Source: Acidobacteria bacterium RIFCSPLOWO2_02_FULL_67_21
Lineage (GTDB): Bacteria; Acidobacteriota; Vicinamibacteria; Vicinamibacterales; UBA2999
DNA length: 44,248 bases
Direction: 5' to 3'
Assembly (NCBI GenBank): GCA_001767195.1
Contig: MEKU01000005.1
Coordinates: 48,733 to 92,980 of the forward strand
Notes under the pieces: model-generated
Told to the model about the DNA's origin: nothing
The model's input: the letters and a program-made list of their open reading frames with translations, nothing else
The model's database searches: none
Translations under genes and position numbers: made by a program
In this document: piece after piece, positions 1,123-35,173 of the stretch
Layout of the letters: the number at the start of each line of letters is the position of its first letter
How positions within the stretch are numbered: position 1 is the first letter of the stretch

Positions 1123-1479
1123 ATGGGCAGCCTCGAAGAACGGATCACTGCCGTGGAAGCGCAGACGGACGCGCACACCCGTGCGATTGACGGCTTGCGG
1201 CATGACCTTGCCGACTTTCGCGCCGAGGTACGGACGGAGATCGCGGATCTCCGACGCGACATGACGGCCGGCGACGCCGCGCTGCGCGCCGAGGTCGCCG
1301 ACATCCGACGCGACATGACAGCGGGCGACGCAGCGTTGCGCGTCGAGATCAACGAACTGCGCGCCGAGATGAGCCGCCGGTTCGACATCATGGACCAGAA
1401 GTTCCTGTGGCTCGCAGGGACCCAGGTGGCCACGCTGCTCGCGGTGGTCGGCGTCCTTGCCGGCGCATTGTTCCGGTAG
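1123..1479 (+). CDS. Small tail-anchored coiled-coil protein with an 18-residue repeat
   Basis: Function unknown. The 118-residue product has a long heptad-rich helix over residues 1-90 and one hydrophobic segment near the C-terminus (about 95-115, LAGTQVATLLAVVGVLAG). It is probably anchored in the inner membrane with the coiled coil in the cytoplasm. The helix contains an 18-residue unit (core RRDMTAGDAALR) repeated twice nearly perfectly in protein and DNA (about 1240-1347), with a third degenerate copy. The start at 1123 is chosen because AGGGAG lies about ten bases upstream and the heptads begin there; the frame stays open back to 913, but that stretch is Pro/Arg-rich and looks non-coding. 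Similar helix-plus-anchor proteins occur in phages and as DUF1640-like proteins, but neither can be assigned. Confidence 0.7.
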   Translation: MGSLEERITAVEAQTDAHTRAIDGLRHDLADFRAEVRTEIADLRRDMTAGDAALRAEVADIRRDMTAGDAALRVEINELRAEMSRRFDIMDQKFLWLAGTQVATLLAVVGVLAGALFR

Positions 1480-1505
1480 ACTCCTCCGCGCGCCAGCCGG
1501 TCACT

Positions 1506-1560
1506 TGTCCACTTTTCCACTTACTTTCCACTTTCAACTTTCTCCTTTCTACTTGTAGTA
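1506..1560. repeat. Pyrimidine word repeat upstream of the MatC-like permease
   Basis: The gap before the permease start at 1570 is built almost wholly from variants of the words CCACTTT and CTTTCTC, giving an imperfect C/T-rich tandem in the sense strand. It leaves no Shine-Dalgarno sequence directly before the start codon. It belongs with the other gap-specific word repeats in this window. Confidence 0.6.
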
Positions 1561-1569
1561 TCCGGGGCC

Positions 1570-2817
1570 ATGTCGCTTGCGTGGCTCTCCCTCCTCGCCC
1601 TCCTCACGGCCATTGTCGTCAGCTGCGTCTCCCGGCTGAACGTCGGGATCCTCGCGGTCGCCTTCGCGTGGATCGTCGGCGTGTACTTCGGCGGGATGTC
1701 GCTCGGCGACGTGGTTGCGGGATTTCCGGTGCAGCTCTTTCTCACGCTGACGGGCGTGACGCTGCTCTTCACCCAGGCACAATTGAACGGCACGCTGGAC
1801 AAGATTGCGCACCAGGCCGTCCGGGTCTGCCGCGGCAACACCGGCTTCATCCCCGTGTCGTTCTTCCTGCTCGGCAGCGGCATTGCGTCGCTCGGGCCAG
1901 GCAACATCTCGACGGCGGCGCTGCTGGCGCCGATGGGCATGGCGGTGGCCGGACGCGCCGGCATCCCTCCGTTTCTGATGGCGCTCATGGTCGGCAACGG
2001 CGCCCAGTCGGGCGCGCTGTCGCCGTTTGCGCCGACCGGCATCATCGTGAACGGCCTCATGGACCGCATCGGGCTGGCCGGCCTCGAATGGCGGACCTAC
2101 TGGACCAACCTGGCGGCGCATGCCGTGCTGGCCTTTGGCGCGTATCTGCTCTTCGGCGGATGGCGGCTCTTTCGCGCGAAGTTCCGGGGCGCGGTCGCGG
2201 AGACGACCGAGGCCTTCGTCGTGCAGAACTGGGTGACGCTGGGCGTGATTCTCTGCGTGCTGGCGGCGGTGCTGTTTGCCGACGCCAACATCGGGATGGC
2301 GGGCTTCGCCGGCGCCGTGATCCTGGCGGCGACGCGCGTCGCCGATCACGAGCAGGCCGTGCGGCGGATGCCCTGGTATCCGATCGTGATGGTGACCGGC
2401 GTCACCATCCTCATCTCGCTCCTCGAGAAGACCGGCGGCCTCGACCTCTTCACCCAGTTTCTGGCCTGGCTGGCCACGCCGGCGACCGCCACCCTCGCGG
2501 TTGCGTTCGTCACCGCCGTGATCTCGGTGTACAGCAGCACGTCCGGCGTTGTGCTGCCCGCGTTCCTGCCGACGGTGCCGGGCCTCGTCATGCGGCTCGG
2601 CCTCGGGGACCCGGGCGCGATCGCGGCGTCCATGAACGTCGGCGCCCATCTCGTCGACATGTCGCCGCTCTCGACGACCGGTGCCCTGTGCCTGGCGGGC
2701 ATCACCGATCCGGAGCAGGTGCGGCCCACCTACAACCGGCTGCTCGCGTGGGGGCTTTCGATGACCGTGATCGGCTCGGTGCTGTGCTGGGTGATGTTCT
2801 GGGTGCTGGGGCTTTAG
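1570..2817 (+). CDS. MatC-like dicarboxylate permease, ion transporter superfamily
   Basis: Integral membrane carrier of 415 residues with about ten to twelve hydrophobic segments. The first 150 residues resemble the N-terminal domain of the malonate/dicarboxylate carrier MatC, including the reentrant-type stretch GPGNISTAALLAPMG (about 117-131). A second glycine/serine-rich stretch, YSSTSGVVLPAFLPT, lies in the C-terminal half (about 320), as expected of the two inverted halves of this superfamily. It probably imports a C4-dicarboxylate or malonate with sodium or protons; the substrate cannot be read from the sequence. The ATG at 1570 is the first good start, and the leader is a C/T-rich repeat with no clear ribosome-binding site. 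The stop codon overlaps that of the convergent regulator gene by three bases. Confidence 0.8.
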   Translation: MSLAWLSLLALLTAIVVSCVSRLNVGILAVAFAWIVGVYFGGMSLGDVVAGFPVQLFLTLTGVTLLFTQAQLNGTLDKIAHQAVRVCRGNTGFIPVSFFLLGSGIASLGPGNISTAALLAPMGMAVAGRAGIPPFLMALMVGNGAQSGALSPFAPTGIIVNGLMDRIGLAGLEWRTYWTNLAAHAVLAFGAYLLFGGWRLFRAKFRGAVAETTEAFVVQNWVTLGVILCVLAAVLFADANIGMAGFAGAVILAATRVADHEQAVRRMPWYPIVMVTGVTILISLLEKTGGLDLFTQFLAWLATPATATLAVAFVTAVISVYSSTSGVVLPAFLPTVPGLVMRLGLGDPGAIAASMNVGAHLVDMSPLSTTGALCLAGITDPEQVRPTYNRLLAWGLSMTVIGSVLCWVMFWVLGL

Positions 2818-4202: not shown

Positions 4203-4215
4203 ATAGCGTCCACGA

Positions 4216-4279
4216 GCCACAGAGACACAGAGTCACAGAGGAAATCAATATCGTCTCTGTGTCTCTGTGACTCTGTGGC
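4216..4279. repeat. CACAGAG dyad between the kinase and regulator genes
   Basis: Two 25-base arms (4216-4240 and 4255-4279) built from the word CACAGAG pair with only two opposed mismatches around a 14-base spacer. In the ntrY-to-ntrX transcript this folds into a long hairpin between the kinase stop and the regulator start. The right arm, 4254-4279, recurs base for base at 35148-35173. Confidence 0.85.
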
Positions 4280-12710: not shown

Positions 12711-12803
12711 GGCGGGTCCCGCCGCGAGTCTCGATCGCGGCCCTTCTCCTGACGTGGGGCGAGGCCGCCTCGAGTTTCGATTGCATCGAGCGGCGGACCC
12801 GCC
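12711..12803. repeat. Palindromic element with GGCGGGTCC/GGACCCGCC ends and two inner hairpins
   Basis: Perfect nine-base inverted ends (12711-12719, 12795-12803) enclose two further hairpins: GCCGCGA/TCGCGGC (12721-12727, 12735-12741) and an imperfect one around 12764-12795. The layout parallels the 73-base element at 39328-39400. There is no open frame in it. It fills the gap between the groEL terminator and yjbQ. Confidence 0.75.
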
Positions 12804-12809
12804 GACCCG

Positions 12810-14996: not shown

Positions 14997-15079
14997 AATG
15001 CCCAATGCTCAATGCAAAATGCCCAATGCACAAGAGTGCCGCTTGGTCATTAGGCATTCGGCATTGAGCGTTAGGCATT
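14997..15079. repeat. AATGCC word repeat forming a long hairpin
   Basis: Two 34-base arms (14997-15030, 15046-15079) made of AATGCCC/AATGCTC words pair with about six or seven mismatches around a 15-base loop. The right arm runs into the stop codon of the VWA gene (15078-15080). In the minus-strand transcript it is therefore a large hairpin directly after the VWA stop and before the stress-type gene. Confidence 0.8.
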
Positions 15080-16280: not shown

Positions 16281-18548
16281 TCAGCGGCCGCGCCGCCTGC
16301 CGCCCCGTTTTCCTGCGGCGCGCTCGCGGCGGCCGGGGTGCTGCGCCCGCCGCTCCTGCTTCGGCCGCACTTTGCTTCTCACCGGCCCTCTGGGCCGCTC
16401 CTCCCGGCGCATCTCCTCGAGAATCTCCACCAGACCCAGGTCGACCTGCCGCCGTTCCATGTCGACCTTGACGACCTGCACGAGCACCTTGTCTCCCAGC
16501 CGGTAGACCCGTCGCGTGTTCTCGCCCCGCAGCAGGTGCTGCTGCTCCACGAACCGGTAGTAGTCGTCCGCCATGCTGGAGATGTGGACGAGCCCCTCGA
16601 CGAAGTGCTCGATCAGCTCCACGAACAGCCCGTACGGCGCCACGCCCGTGACATAGCCGTGGAACTCGTCGCCGACCTTGTCGGCCATGAAGCGCACCTT
16701 CTTCCACTGCAGCAGCTCGCGCTCCGCTTCATCCGCGCGCCGCTCCATCTCCGAGGTGTGCCGCGCGACGTCCGGCAGCTCCTCGTCGAGCTCCTGGCGC
16801 CGCTCGTCGGTGATGCCTCCGTGCCGCAGCTCGCGCAGCATGCGGTGCACCACGAGGTCGGGATACCGCCGGATTGGCGACGTGAAGTGCGTGTAGTGCT
16901 CCGCCGCCAGGCCGAAGTGGCCGAGCGGCGCGGCGTCATAGCGGGCCTTCTGCATCGTGCGAAGCATGAGCGCGGCAATCGGGCGCTCGACGGGTGTCCC
17001 GCGAATCCGGTCGATCAGCTTCTGGAAGTGCTTCGGCCGGACGGCATGCCCCTCGGCGGTCAGGCTGTAGCCGAGCGTGGTGATGAAGGCCTCGAAGTCC
17101 TCCACCTTCTTCGCATCGGGCGGCTCATGGACGCGGTGCAGCGCCGGCGTCCCGTTCGTCACCAGATGGCGCGCGACCGTCTCGTTGGCGAGCAGCATGA
17201 ACTCCTCGATGATCCGGTGCGCCACGTTCCGCTCGGACGGGATGATCGCCTCGATCTCGCCCAGCTCTGAGAGCACCACTTCCGTCTCAGGCAGATCGAA
17301 GTCGACCGATCCGCGCCGCCGCCGCCTCGCATGCAGAATCTCGAACAGCTCGTGCATCGTCTCGAAGATCGGCACGAGCTCGATGTGCCTGGCCATCGTG
17401 TCGGAGTCGCGATCGGTCAGCATCGCGTTGACGTCCGTGTACGTCATGCGCGCGGCGCTGTTGATCACGCCGTCGTGCATCTCGTACCGCACGACGCCGC
17501 CCCGGCGATCGACTTCCATGAGGCACGACTGCACCAGCCGATCGACCCTGGGATTCAGGCTGCACAGGCCGGTGGCGAGCTCGGCGGGGAACATGTGCAC
17601 GGCGCGCTCCGGAAAGTACACGGACGTGGCGCGCTCGTACGCCTCTTCGTCGAGCACGCTCCCCTCGCGCACGTAGTGCGAGACGTCGGCGATGTGCACG
17701 CCCAGCCAGTAATGGCCGTTCGGCAGCCGCTCGATCGTGATCGCATCGTCGAAATCGCGTGCGTGCTCGCCGTCGATCGTGACCGTCGTGCGCGTTCGGA
17801 AGTCGGTGCGGCCGCGCAGGTCGCGCTCCCTGACCTCGGCGCCGATGCGGCGGGCCTCGGCCACCGCCTCCTCGGAATGCTCGTCCGGAATCTGGTGTTT
17901 GCGGATGATGATCTGCGTGTCGACGCCGGGCTCGTCGATGCGTCCCAGCACTTCGACGACGCGCCCCGCCGGGCCCCGCGTGGCGGTCGGCCACCGCGTG
18001 ATCTCGACGAGCACCATGGCGCCTGGCTCCGCTGCGCTCCGCTCGCCCGCCGGGACCTGGATGTCGGTGAGGACCCGCCGGTCGAACGGGACCACGTAGC
18101 CGGGCCCCTGCGCATCGATCTCGAAGCGTCCGACGACGGTCTCCTGGCTGCGCTGCAGGATCCGGATGATGCGTCCCTCGGGCCCGCGGCCCGACCGCGA
18201 CTCCACGCGTGCGATCACGCGGTCCCCGTGCATCGCCTCCTTCAGGTTCGCGGCCGCGATGTACACGTCCTGGCCGTCGGGCCCGGCATGTTCGGCCACC
18301 ACGAACCCGAAACCGCCCGGGTTGGTCTGCAGCCGCCCGACCACCACGTCCATCTTCTCGGCAAGCCCGAACCGGTTGCCGCGAATCTGCAGCAGCGCGC
18401 CGTCGGTGACGAGCGTCTTCAGCTGTCGTGTAAAGGCGGCCCGTTCCTCACGCGGAATCCGAAGCAGCTGCACCAGCTCCCGCGCGGTGGCGGGATGATG
18501 CACTTTGTCGCGAATGAGATCGAGCAATTCGTTTTGAGAAGTCATCAC
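16281..18548 (-). CDS. rnr: Ribonuclease R
   Basis: Processive 3'-5' exoribonuclease of the RNase II/R family, 755 residues. Seen in order: an N-terminal winged helix (about 3-62), two cold-shock OB domains (about 65-235), the RNB catalytic domain (about 245-575), an S1 domain (about 625-705) and an Arg/Lys-rich tail (about 715-755). The catalytic aspartates are in HARDFDDAITIE (D265, D267, D268). YTHFTSPIRRYPDLVVHR is the signature near the end of the RNB domain. The basic tail and winged helix favour RNase R over RNase II. ATG codons at 18548 and 18545 are both usable. The leader is a tandem GGTAG-rich repeat shared with the 3' end of the glycerate kinase gene, 15 bases upstream. Confidence 0.96.
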   Translation of the reverse strand: MMTSQNELLDLIRDKVHHPATARELVQLLRIPREERAAFTRQLKTLVTDGALLQIRGNRFGLAEKMDVVVGRLQTNPGGFGFVVAEHAGPDGQDVYIAAANLKEAMHGDRVIARVESRSGRGPEGRIIRILQRSQETVVGRFEIDAQGPGYVVPFDRRVLTDIQVPAGERSAAEPGAMVLVEITRWPTATRGPAGRVVEVLGRIDEPGVDTQIIIRKHQIPDEHSEEAVAEARRIGAEVRERDLRGRTDFRTRTTVTIDGEHARDFDDAITIERLPNGHYWLGVHIADVSHYVREGSVLDEEAYERATSVYFPERAVHMFPAELATGLCSLNPRVDRLVQSCLMEVDRRGGVVRYEMHDGVINSAARMTYTDVNAMLTDRDSDTMARHIELVPIFETMHELFEILHARRRRRGSVDFDLPETEVVLSELGEIEAIIPSERNVAHRIIEEFMLLANETVARHLVTNGTPALHRVHEPPDAKKVEDFEAFITTLGYSLTAEGHAVRPKHFQKLIDRIRGTPVERPIAALMLRTMQKARYDAAPLGHFGLAAEHYTHFTSPIRRYPDLVVHRMLRELRHGGITDERRQELDEELPDVARHTSEMERRADEAERELLQWKKVRFMADKVGDEFHGYVTGVAPYGLFVELIEHFVEGLVHISSMADDYYRFVEQQHLLRGENTRRVYRLGDKVLVQVVKVDMERRQVDLGLVEILEEMRREERPRGPVRSKVRPKQERRAQHPGRRERAAGKRGGRRRGR

Positions 18549-18549
18549 A

Positions 18550-18577
18550 CTACCAACTACCGACTACCAACTACCGA
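18550..18577. repeat. Tandem 14-base repeat spanning the gck stop and rnr leader
   Basis: Two perfect copies (18550-18563, 18564-18577) of CTACCAACTACCGA. On the coding strand each copy supplies two GGTAG units. The first TAG is the glycerate kinase stop, so its last residues (GSW) come from repeat DNA. The second copy ends directly before the RNase R start and offers GGTAG as its ribosome-binding sequence. Confidence 0.85.
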
Positions 18578-19856
18578 CGAGTATGACCTGCAGGTCGCCG
18601 ACATTCGTGCCGGTCGGCCCGGTACGGATCAGATCCTCGAGCCGCTCGAAGAAGAGATAGCTGTTGTGCTCGGCGAGGTACCGCTCAGGCGGCCCGATGC
18701 CGGCGGCAGCAGCGCGGGCCAGCGTGGTGCTGTCGACGATCGCGCCGGCCGCATCGGTGGGGCCGTCGATCCCATCCGTGCCCACGCTGGCCGCGGCGGC
18801 CGGCACGCCGAGGGCCTCAAGCCCGCGAGCCAGCGCAAGCGCGCACTCCTGGTTCCGCCCGCCCTTGCCGGTCCCGGTGGTTCGCACGGTCGTCTCACCG
18901 GCTGAAAGGATGCACAGCGGAACGACGGGTCCGCGGTTCGATGGATCATCGCCAAACCGCGGGACCCGCCCCACGTACTGAAGGAGGCGCCGGGCGGCCT
19001 CGCGCGCCTCGCCCGTGATCGGCTCGTCGACGAGGTGCACCGCGTAGCCGCGCGCGGCCGCGGCGGCGCCCGCCGCGCCGAGGGCGGTGCGTGCGCTTCC
19101 GATCACGCGCGCGGCCACACGCCCCAGTCGCGGGTCGCCCGGTTTGGGCGTCTCTTCAAGCTCGCCCGCGGCGCCACGCGCCAGCCGCCGGACGACCGCG
19201 TCGGGATATGCCGCACGTCCGCCGTACCGATCGAGCGCAGCCAGCGCCTCGCCAAATGTCGTGGGATCGGGCACGGCCGGCCCCGACCCGATCGCCGACA
19301 GGTCGTTACCGACGACATCTGAGAGCGCCAGCGTCAGGGTTGCCCCCGGGGACGCCGCCGCGAGCCAGCCCCCCTTGATCGCCGAGAGGTGCTTCCGGAC
19401 CGTGTTGAGATCGTGAATCTCGGCGCCGAGCGACAGCAGGTGCTGCGACGTCCGCTGCTTGTCGGCGAGCGTCAGCCCGTCGGCCGGAAGTGCCACGATC
19501 GAGGACGCGCCGCCGGAGAGCAGGAGCACGAGCAGATCGCCATCCGCGCCGGCGCGGGCCACGTCGAGCAGACGCTGTGCGGCACGCATGCTCCGCCCGT
19601 CAGGCACGGGGTGCGCGGTGGTGTGCCACTCCACCCCCGGCAGCGGCGCGGCAGGCGGGTCGGCCGACACGCCAACCGCGCGGCGGACGGAGACGGCCGA
19701 TCCCTCCAGAAACGCCCGGAGCATCGGCGCCGCCGCCTTGCCGGCGGCCACGACGTCAACCGCAGCCGCCGTCCGTAGCGCCGCGTTCACGTCGGGCGCG
19801 GCGAGCGCCCGACGCGCGAGCACACCGGCATCGACAGCGTCCAGCGCCGTACGCAC
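18564..19856 (-). CDS. Glycerate 2-kinase (MOFRL/DUF4147 family)
   Basis: Phosphorylates D-glycerate to 2-phosphoglycerate; the family also contains proteins once called hydroxypyruvate reductase (TtuD). The 430-residue protein has the N-terminal domain motifs VVAAGKAAAPML (about 35-46), HPVPDGRS, VLLLSGGASSIVALP (about 109-123) and LSAIKGGWLA. The C-terminal MOFRL domain has LSAGETTV (about 319) and GKGGRNQECALALA (about 333). The stretch at about residues 297-311 is encoded by a palindromic element (18926-18968) and looks like an insertion in a surface loop. GTG 19856 is used as the start, although the frame continues upstream, where family-like residues (LREDLAALV) suggest a rare start such as CTG 19901. 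The C-terminus runs into a tandem repeat. Confidence 0.9.
   Translation of the reverse strand: MRTALDAVDAGVLARRALAAPDVNAALRTAAAVDVVAAGKAAAPMLRAFLEGSAVSVRRAVGVSADPPAAPLPGVEWHTTAHPVPDGRSMRAAQRLLDVARAGADGDLLVLLLSGGASSIVALPADGLTLADKQRTSQHLLSLGAEIHDLNTVRKHLSAIKGGWLAAASPGATLTLALSDVVGNDLSAIGSGPAVPDPTTFGEALAALDRYGGRAAYPDAVVRRLARGAAGELEETPKPGDPRLGRVAARVIGSARTALGAAGAAAAARGYAVHLVDEPITGEAREAARRLLQYVGRVPRFGDDPSNRGPVVPLCILSAGETTVRTTGTGKGGRNQECALALARGLEALGVPAAAASVGTDGIDGPTDAAGAIVDSTTLARAAAAGIGPPERYLAEHNSYLFFERLEDLIRTGPTGTNVGDLQVILVGSW
18926..18968. repeat. Palindromic element inside the glycerate kinase coding region
   Basis: Inverted ends CGGGTCC (18926-18932) and GGACCCG (18962-18968) enclose further pairing, GCGGTT with AACCGC, around a loop at 18939-18954. 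It is translated in frame as part of GRVPRFGDDPSNRGP. The ends match the family at 12711-12803. Confidence 0.7.
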
Positions 19857-19897
19857 GAGGGCGGCGAGATCTTCGCGGAGCGTATTGAGGGAACGTG

Positions 19898-20209
19898 TCA
19901 GTGAATCTGTCGAGGGTCGGACCAGGCGGAAAGGCGGGCAACCGTGTCGAACTGGCGGAGGAGATGGCTGACCACCTTATCCGCCTCCGGGGTGGCGCAC
20001 AGTCGATCGATCTGCGCCATCACCCTCGTCAGCGCCCTTTCCATCTCGGTGATCGTGCGCTCCGAATAGTACTCGCGCTGCGCATCGAGGCAGCGCTGGC
20101 ACTTGATGAACTCTTCGCGATAGAAATTGGAAAGGGAATGCAGCACCGGTTCAGGCTGTGGACGAGAGTCGGTCAGGAAACGCGCGACCCGGTTCCGTGG
20201 CACCGCCAT
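19898..20209 (-). CDS. Small conserved-looking protein with a CxxC motif, unknown
   Basis: A 103-residue protein that is not recognised. It is probably cytoplasmic, mostly helical and charged, with a single CxxC pair in EFIKCQRCLDAQREYYSE (about 35-52) that could bind metal or be redox active. The central part (TITEMERALTRVMAQIDRL) has amphipathic helix character. It lies between ftsX and the glycerate kinase gene on the same strand. Its stop overlaps a CTG that may be the real kinase start, suggesting coupling. The start at 20209 gives MAVPRNRVARFLT. Codon use resembles the neighbours, and there is no competing frame of similar quality, so a real gene is likely. Confidence 0.62.
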   Translation of the reverse strand: MAVPRNRVARFLTDSRPQPEPVLHSLSNFYREEFIKCQRCLDAQREYYSERTITEMERALTRVMAQIDRLCATPEADKVVSHLLRQFDTVARLSAWSDPRQIH

Positions 20210-35117: not shown

Positions 35118-35121
35118 AAGG

Positions 35122-35173
35122 CACAGAGACCCCGAACTCAAGCGTGTTCTCTGTGTCTCTGTGACTCTGTGGC
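35122..35173. repeat. Second CACAGAG repeat, between convergent genes
   Basis: The 26 bases 35148-35173 are identical to 4254-4279. The opposite arm is shortened: only CACAGAGAC (35122-35130) remains to pair with 35155-35163. It lies between the folK stop and the stop of the ferritin-like gene, where a hairpin could end both transcripts. Confidence 0.85.

Follow-up and report, generated by a model that had tools for sequence, protein, structure and literature searches.

How does a palindrome come to be translated in frame inside an intact glycerate kinase gene, and what kind of element is it? The case lies in a 44 kb stretch of 44,248 nucleotides, all of which is called the window here, from a fragmented assembly (4.19 Mb in 107 contigs; completeness 99.5, contamination 2.56). 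The palindrome that a first-pass annotation had reported at 18926–18968 is present there in imperfect form, within a minus-strand open reading frame that stays open throughout. REPs are by definition extragenic. The kinase element is very probably a REP of the GTAG superfamily, that is, a non-autonomous, single-strand mobile hairpin, copied by the REP-associated tyrosine transposase (RAYT) of the same genome into the loop that precedes the MOFRL domain of the enzyme.

The repeat and its family in the genome

The kinase copy combines a GTGG foot, a basal stem (GGCGGGT/ACCCGTC, with one G-T pair), a one-base bulge and an inner stem, CCGCGGTT/AACCGCGG, and it encodes V295–V311 of the protein. The TAC triplet ahead of the foot (Y294) probably belongs to the repeat as well, to judge from the aligned copies (Table 1). 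A covariance model, built from 43 sequences with the window copy among them, matched from 18980 to 18921 at 66.6 bits with zero broken pairs. On the coding strand the palindrome has a folding energy of -36.9 kcal/mol, whereas shuffled sequences average -25.2 (z -3.7; none of 200 shuffles was as good). A search of window positions 18000–20000 with Rfam returned no match over the gathering threshold.

Table 1. Features located in the window, numbered from its first letter
Feature	Position	Strand	Details and basis
Glycerate 2-kinase host gene (DUF4147 + MOFRL)	18564..19856	-	430 aa, intact; Pfam, PDB by sequence and fold
REP element proper	18924..18974 (51 nt)	-	covariance model, own-genome BLASTN family, pattern
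TAC triplet (Y294) ahead of GTGG foot	18975..18977	-	consensus GTAC before GTGG in the 43-copy alignment
Second, degraded REP of the same family	12748..12806	+	model 43.1 bits; between convergent genes

With a 101-base query, BLASTN matched the genome at 25 places (E<=1e-3), the window copy among them. They follow a common plan: a GT[AG]G foot, GGCGGGT, one free base, CC with the inner stem, a loop, the inner stem with GG, and ACCCGCC. The pattern GTRGGGCGGRTYC..GACCCGCC occurs 54 times in the genome and never in the reversed control; the window copy, being degenerate, is not among the 54. Among 43 aligned copies, seven of the 14 predicted pairs show compensatory changes on both sides, and the copies share a basal stem of 7 bp, a bulge of one base and a second stem that covaries. 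The covariance model places the REP at 127 sites in the genome, which may be a lower bound, since 150 candidates were scored per genome. The foot reads GTGG or GTAG in 119 of these 127 copies, and 50 of the 127 lie within 250 bp of another, mostly in inverted arrangement.

The family extends to relatives. Of 43 family genomes, 15 contain the pattern, against none for the control, and the model matched 120 sites in G014, 76 in G026, 66 in G013, 54 in G022, 27 in G015, 19 in G011, 11 in G004, 3 in G031 and 1 in G009; the REP-poor related genome G017 gave 0 matches among 150 scored candidates. A chance palindrome of GC-rich codons would be conceivable in a G+C-rich genome, the more so as the window contains many chance inverted repeats. 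The 25 BLASTN places, the shuffles, the covariation, the 127 model matches and the empty result in G017 nevertheless make this reading next to impossible, and we rejected it.

Transposases and published repeat systems

Two Y1_Tnp proteins are encoded in the genome, both above the NCBIfam cut-off for REP-associated tyrosine transposases and both with a readable HVH motif and with a tyrosine placed four residues ahead of an asparagine; the asparagine of the RAYT tyrosine motif is described as important in the portion of Quentin et al. 2018 (PMC6006769) that treats it. One of them (L071:1585-2052; NF047646, REP_Tyr_transpos, 114.9 bits against a cut-off of 80; nearest solved structure TnpArep, 4er8) is surrounded by copies of the present REP at 1438-1496(-), 1495-1553(+), 2063-2122(-) and 2162-2220(+). 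The other (L026:1354-1950) has another palindrome on its two sides, GTAGTGCTTGGCTTTAGCCAAGCC-like and with a GTAG foot, at L026:1312-1374 and 1956-2114, so that the genome seems to hold two REP/RAYT systems. The assignment of the kinase element to the GTAG superfamily is thus based on four observations: a GT[AG]G foot, pairing conserved across copies, dispersal over mostly intergenic sites, and a RAYT flanked by the same REP.

Published descriptions agree with this assignment. The GT[AG]G foot and bulged 'long hairpin' fit the REP search rules set out in the relevant passages of Quentin et al. (PMC6006769). The RAYT lying between REPs and the paired, mostly inverted copies recall the REPIN/BIME and REPtron organisation treated by Bertels and Rainey 2011 (PMC3116915) and by Quentin et al. 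The kinase copy differs in being a translated singlet. The closest precedent is provided by Di Nocera, De Gregorio and Rocco 2013 (PMC3733652), which describes GTAG-tagged REPs with RAYTs and REPs within genes including uvrA and tRNA synthetase genes. The present family shares with those intragenic REPs the GT[AG]G foot, the palindrome, the RAYT partner and in-frame copies in uvrA and tRNA synthetase genes, and differs in its stem sequence and its host group, here inferred to be Vicinamibacteria-type Acidobacteriota. In the relevant passages of PMC3733652, Acidobacteria are mentioned solely in connection with transposases that have unrelated terminal repeats on either side, and a glycerate kinase case is absent from those passages. 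In-frame intragenic REPs are already in print; what is new here is an unusually clear case, with translated REPs in about twenty genes and recurrence at the same loop in related genera. Our search of the open-licence PMC literature found no paper on translated REPs in Vicinamibacteria.

The first-pass annotation had likened the element to the Rickettsia palindromic elements (RPEs). The likeness extends to behaviour: like RPEs, the present repeat is palindromic and inserts in frame in many unrelated genes (25 copies in 20 ORFs), as might also a comparable, unrelated protein-coding palindrome adapted to insertion in genes. Membership in that group is refuted by the foot and the transposase. The text of PMC3733652 classes RPEs as CGTC-tagged repeats without a known transposase, and a review (PMC10969869) gives classical RPEs as about 150 bp long, nearly half of them in genes, and in frame in many unrelated genes. 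The present family, in contrast, carries GT[AG]G in 119 of 127 copies, measures 51 nt in the window, has a dedicated RAYT with flanking copies, and keeps 102 of its 127 copies outside any one open coding frame. We thus consider an RPE, or an equivalent coding palindrome, extremely improbable.

The insert in the kinase and its relatives

The host gene encodes a glycerate 2-kinase with both domains recognisable (PF13660, 2.4e-60; PF05161, 8.3e-36), the residues that are invariant family-wide, and the fold of 2b8n/1x3l; its MOFRL domain covers residues 314–421. The solved structures nearest in sequence are those of a glycerate kinase (2b8n) and its relative (1x3l), and a fold search with the predicted model returned the same pair (Z 44.8 and 42.5, respectively). 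Fold matches ranked below these two, FtsZ among them, may reflect a common arrangement only and were set aside. Apart from the insert, the kinase superposes on 2b8n over 399 residues at 3.0 Å, and we infer that the predicted activity is retained with the insert in place. The closest named homologue is from a Vicinamibacteria bacterium.

Homologues from the family and order were compared over the segment running from ITGEA through to GETTVRTT, with the 41 matches that came with loci (the kinase was matched in 51 of 59 and 36 of 43 genomes). The segment has 40 residues in 33 of the 41, 48 in the window, 50 in L028 (G015), 61 in L030 (G026) and 37–44 in the five others. The DNA is REP-derived in the three longest, which come from the genus of the window and two others: the model scores the repeat at 48.4 bits in the G015 gene and, weakly, at 30.4 bits in the G026 gene, and all three genomes are rich in REPs. 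The L030 insert consists of a fragment and a full element with the stem GGCGGAGCT/AGCTCCGCC, a subtype that occurred twice in a search of six genomes, both times in G026. An insertion confined to this lineage, as the first-pass annotation had proposed looking for, was thus found in 3 of the 41 homologues. Its estimate was about 15 supplied residues, whereas the REP encodes 17. Against the most frequent length the net gain is only 8 residues, and against the closest relatives lacking the insert (L031 and L032, 38 residues) it is 10. With 17 codons brought in for a gain of 8, the event cannot have been a clean insertion into the loop of today's relatives; either some nine codons of the host are missing or the loop was already shorter in the ancestor.

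Among 80 named, mostly distant kinases the insert is absent by length, with segments of 36–43 residues, except for L165 (53), whose extra residues sit elsewhere, after GETTV. A conserved loop of the family is thereby ruled out as the source of the block, and the same residues were not encountered in distant homologues lacking the palindrome. In an AlphaFold2 model of the window kinase, computed from an alignment of 44 sequences (43 of the 80 named loci and the window), mean pLDDT was 92.9 and the block 301–310 had the lowest confidence, with a mean of 52. The block lies between a predicted helix (284–297) and a predicted strand (314–323) just before the MOFRL domain, in agreement with the loop between helix and beta strand supposed earlier. 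As modelled, the insert most likely forms a flexible surface loop.

We propose that the RAYT, an HUH tyrosine transposase, would have copied the REP into the loop between the end of the helix, at about residue 297, and the first MOFRL strand. The insert may then have been kept because its 51 nt, or 17 codons, are free of stops in this frame and fall in a flexible loop. Alternatively, the element could be an RNA hairpin maintained by selection for translational pausing before the MOFRL domain or for mRNA stability, and so kept for a function rather than tolerated. Its location just ahead of that domain, the strong fold in the mRNA sense strand (-36.9 kcal/mol) and the full pairing of the window copy save one G-T would all suit such a role. 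We regard it as very unlikely, since 38 of 41 homologues do without the hairpin, the G015 copy has broken inner pairs, the same repeat occupies many unrelated genes and intergenic sites, and an intact stem is equally well explained by a young copy.

Intragenic copies, strand bias and shared sites

A REP copy in an open coding frame is not peculiar to the kinase gene. In the genome as a whole, with coding regions judged by a codon-usage model trained on this window instead of a standard gene finder, 25 of the 127 copies fall within a single open coding frame (23 by the strict rule and two with weaker flank scores), distributed over 20 distinct ORFs, 19 of which have a Pfam family. Among their products are UvrA, the beta subunit of PheRS (pheT), CysRS, a MutS2-like protein, ETF-QO, RNase E/G, an amidase, two ABC ATPases, Omp85, TamB, GlgE, a PfkB kinase and a metalloenzyme-superfamily protein; where a gene name goes further than the Pfam title, it is our interpretation. 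A second method put 29 of the 127 copies within called genes and 98 outside them. Given that about 89% of the window is coding, the copies are strongly depleted from genes. An intragenic share near 20% is, even so, high beside the 14 of 1,067 REP 16-mers reported to overlap genes in P. fluorescens SBW25 in the corresponding part of PMC3116915, though the two were counted differently; REPs are also said to overlap coding regions rarely in the passage of PMC12306157 that addresses them.

Single REPs within genes are oriented with the coding strand in 20 cases and against it in 3, and those between co-directional genes in 30 and 11, respectively. A stricter first count gave 17:2 and 14:0 with 75 of the 127 copies excluded for weak flanks, and we report the weaker ratios. 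Antisense frames are open about as often as sense frames (318 and 313 of 381, respectively). The 20 sense intragenic copies are read in the VRGAG-like phase in 14 cases, YVGRVP-like in five and TWGG in one (chi-square p 0.004 against open frames), a bias that perhaps stems from the small, flexible VRGAG-like peptide.

The history of the kinase site is harder to read. In a tree of the kinase computed without the loop columns, the three carriers and two non-carriers form a supported clade of five rows (99/94), within which at least two changes are needed; the tree cannot separate one old gain from two gains. All three inserts share one orientation and one reading frame (YVGR). The kinase searches of 59 and 43 genomes yielded no genome of the same genus, and hence no close empty site. 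One non-carrier inside the clade, G022, reads CAC GTG GGC, a CACGTGGGC stretch, where the head of the REP would be, and in its cysS gene GAT GTG GGC GGG, a GATGTGGGCGGG stretch, at the site occupied by a REP in the cysS of the window genome. To judge from their sequence, both stretches look like the remains of older insertions, or deletion scars; they could also be foot-like target sequences or chance. It is most likely that the site was first hit in the ancestor of the five genomes and then underwent decay, deletion or re-invasion.

A different history for the same mobile element would be that a hot loop was entered separately in two or three genera. Within genus g12, L030 has the insert and L032 does not; two changes on the tree are fewer than one gain and two losses; and the REP subtype of L030, seen in G026 alone among six genomes, suggests a separate or secondary hit there. 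Moreover, the text of Di Nocera et al. reports different REPs at about the same recB site in two Xanthomonas species (PMC3733652). Against this stand the common orientation and frame of the three inserts and the scar-like stretches of G022 in both genes, and we hold separate insertions to be a real possibility while leaning towards the single ancestral hit.

Two further genes show comparable patterns. In the cysS gene (L080:1107-2657), three tandem REP-derived units, two of them almost exact repeats of each other, stand between the catalytic domain and the DALR domain. The aligned stretch is 86 residues long there, whereas six of seven orthologues have 46 (+40) and G022 has 48 (+38). The uvrA gene (L017:3-2402) carries two tandem units just past the matched part of the DNA-binding domain, and its orthologue in G015 (L268) retains a recognisable remnant at the same place (23.9 bits). 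As read from the sequences, the same-site remnants in relatives of cysS and uvrA suggest ancestral insertion followed by decay. A broader reading, which we offer as speculative and somewhat doubtful, is that protein loops form a regular, long-lasting habitat for the REP/RAYT system in this Acidobacteriota family, with loops of the kinase, cysteinyl-tRNA synthetase and UvrA shared by more than one genus and passing through cycles of insertion, decay and scarring, and with copies co-oriented as if the RAYT inserts into a coding strand that replication or transcription has left single-stranded. The strand bias provides a test of target-strand choice by RAYTs. Some 20 conserved genes with translated REPs, together with the intact, decayed and possibly scarred states at the same loop, provide a natural series from mobile DNA to protein, and the same-loop series also bears on which protein sites tolerate mobile DNA.

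Other repeats were seen in the window. Two inverted repeats of the CACAGAGTCACAGAG type, at 4214-4279 and 35119-35166, are perhaps a different dispersed repeat, and at 14997-15079 an array of short AATGCCCAATGC-like direct repeats makes up an inverted repeat with 38-nt arms.
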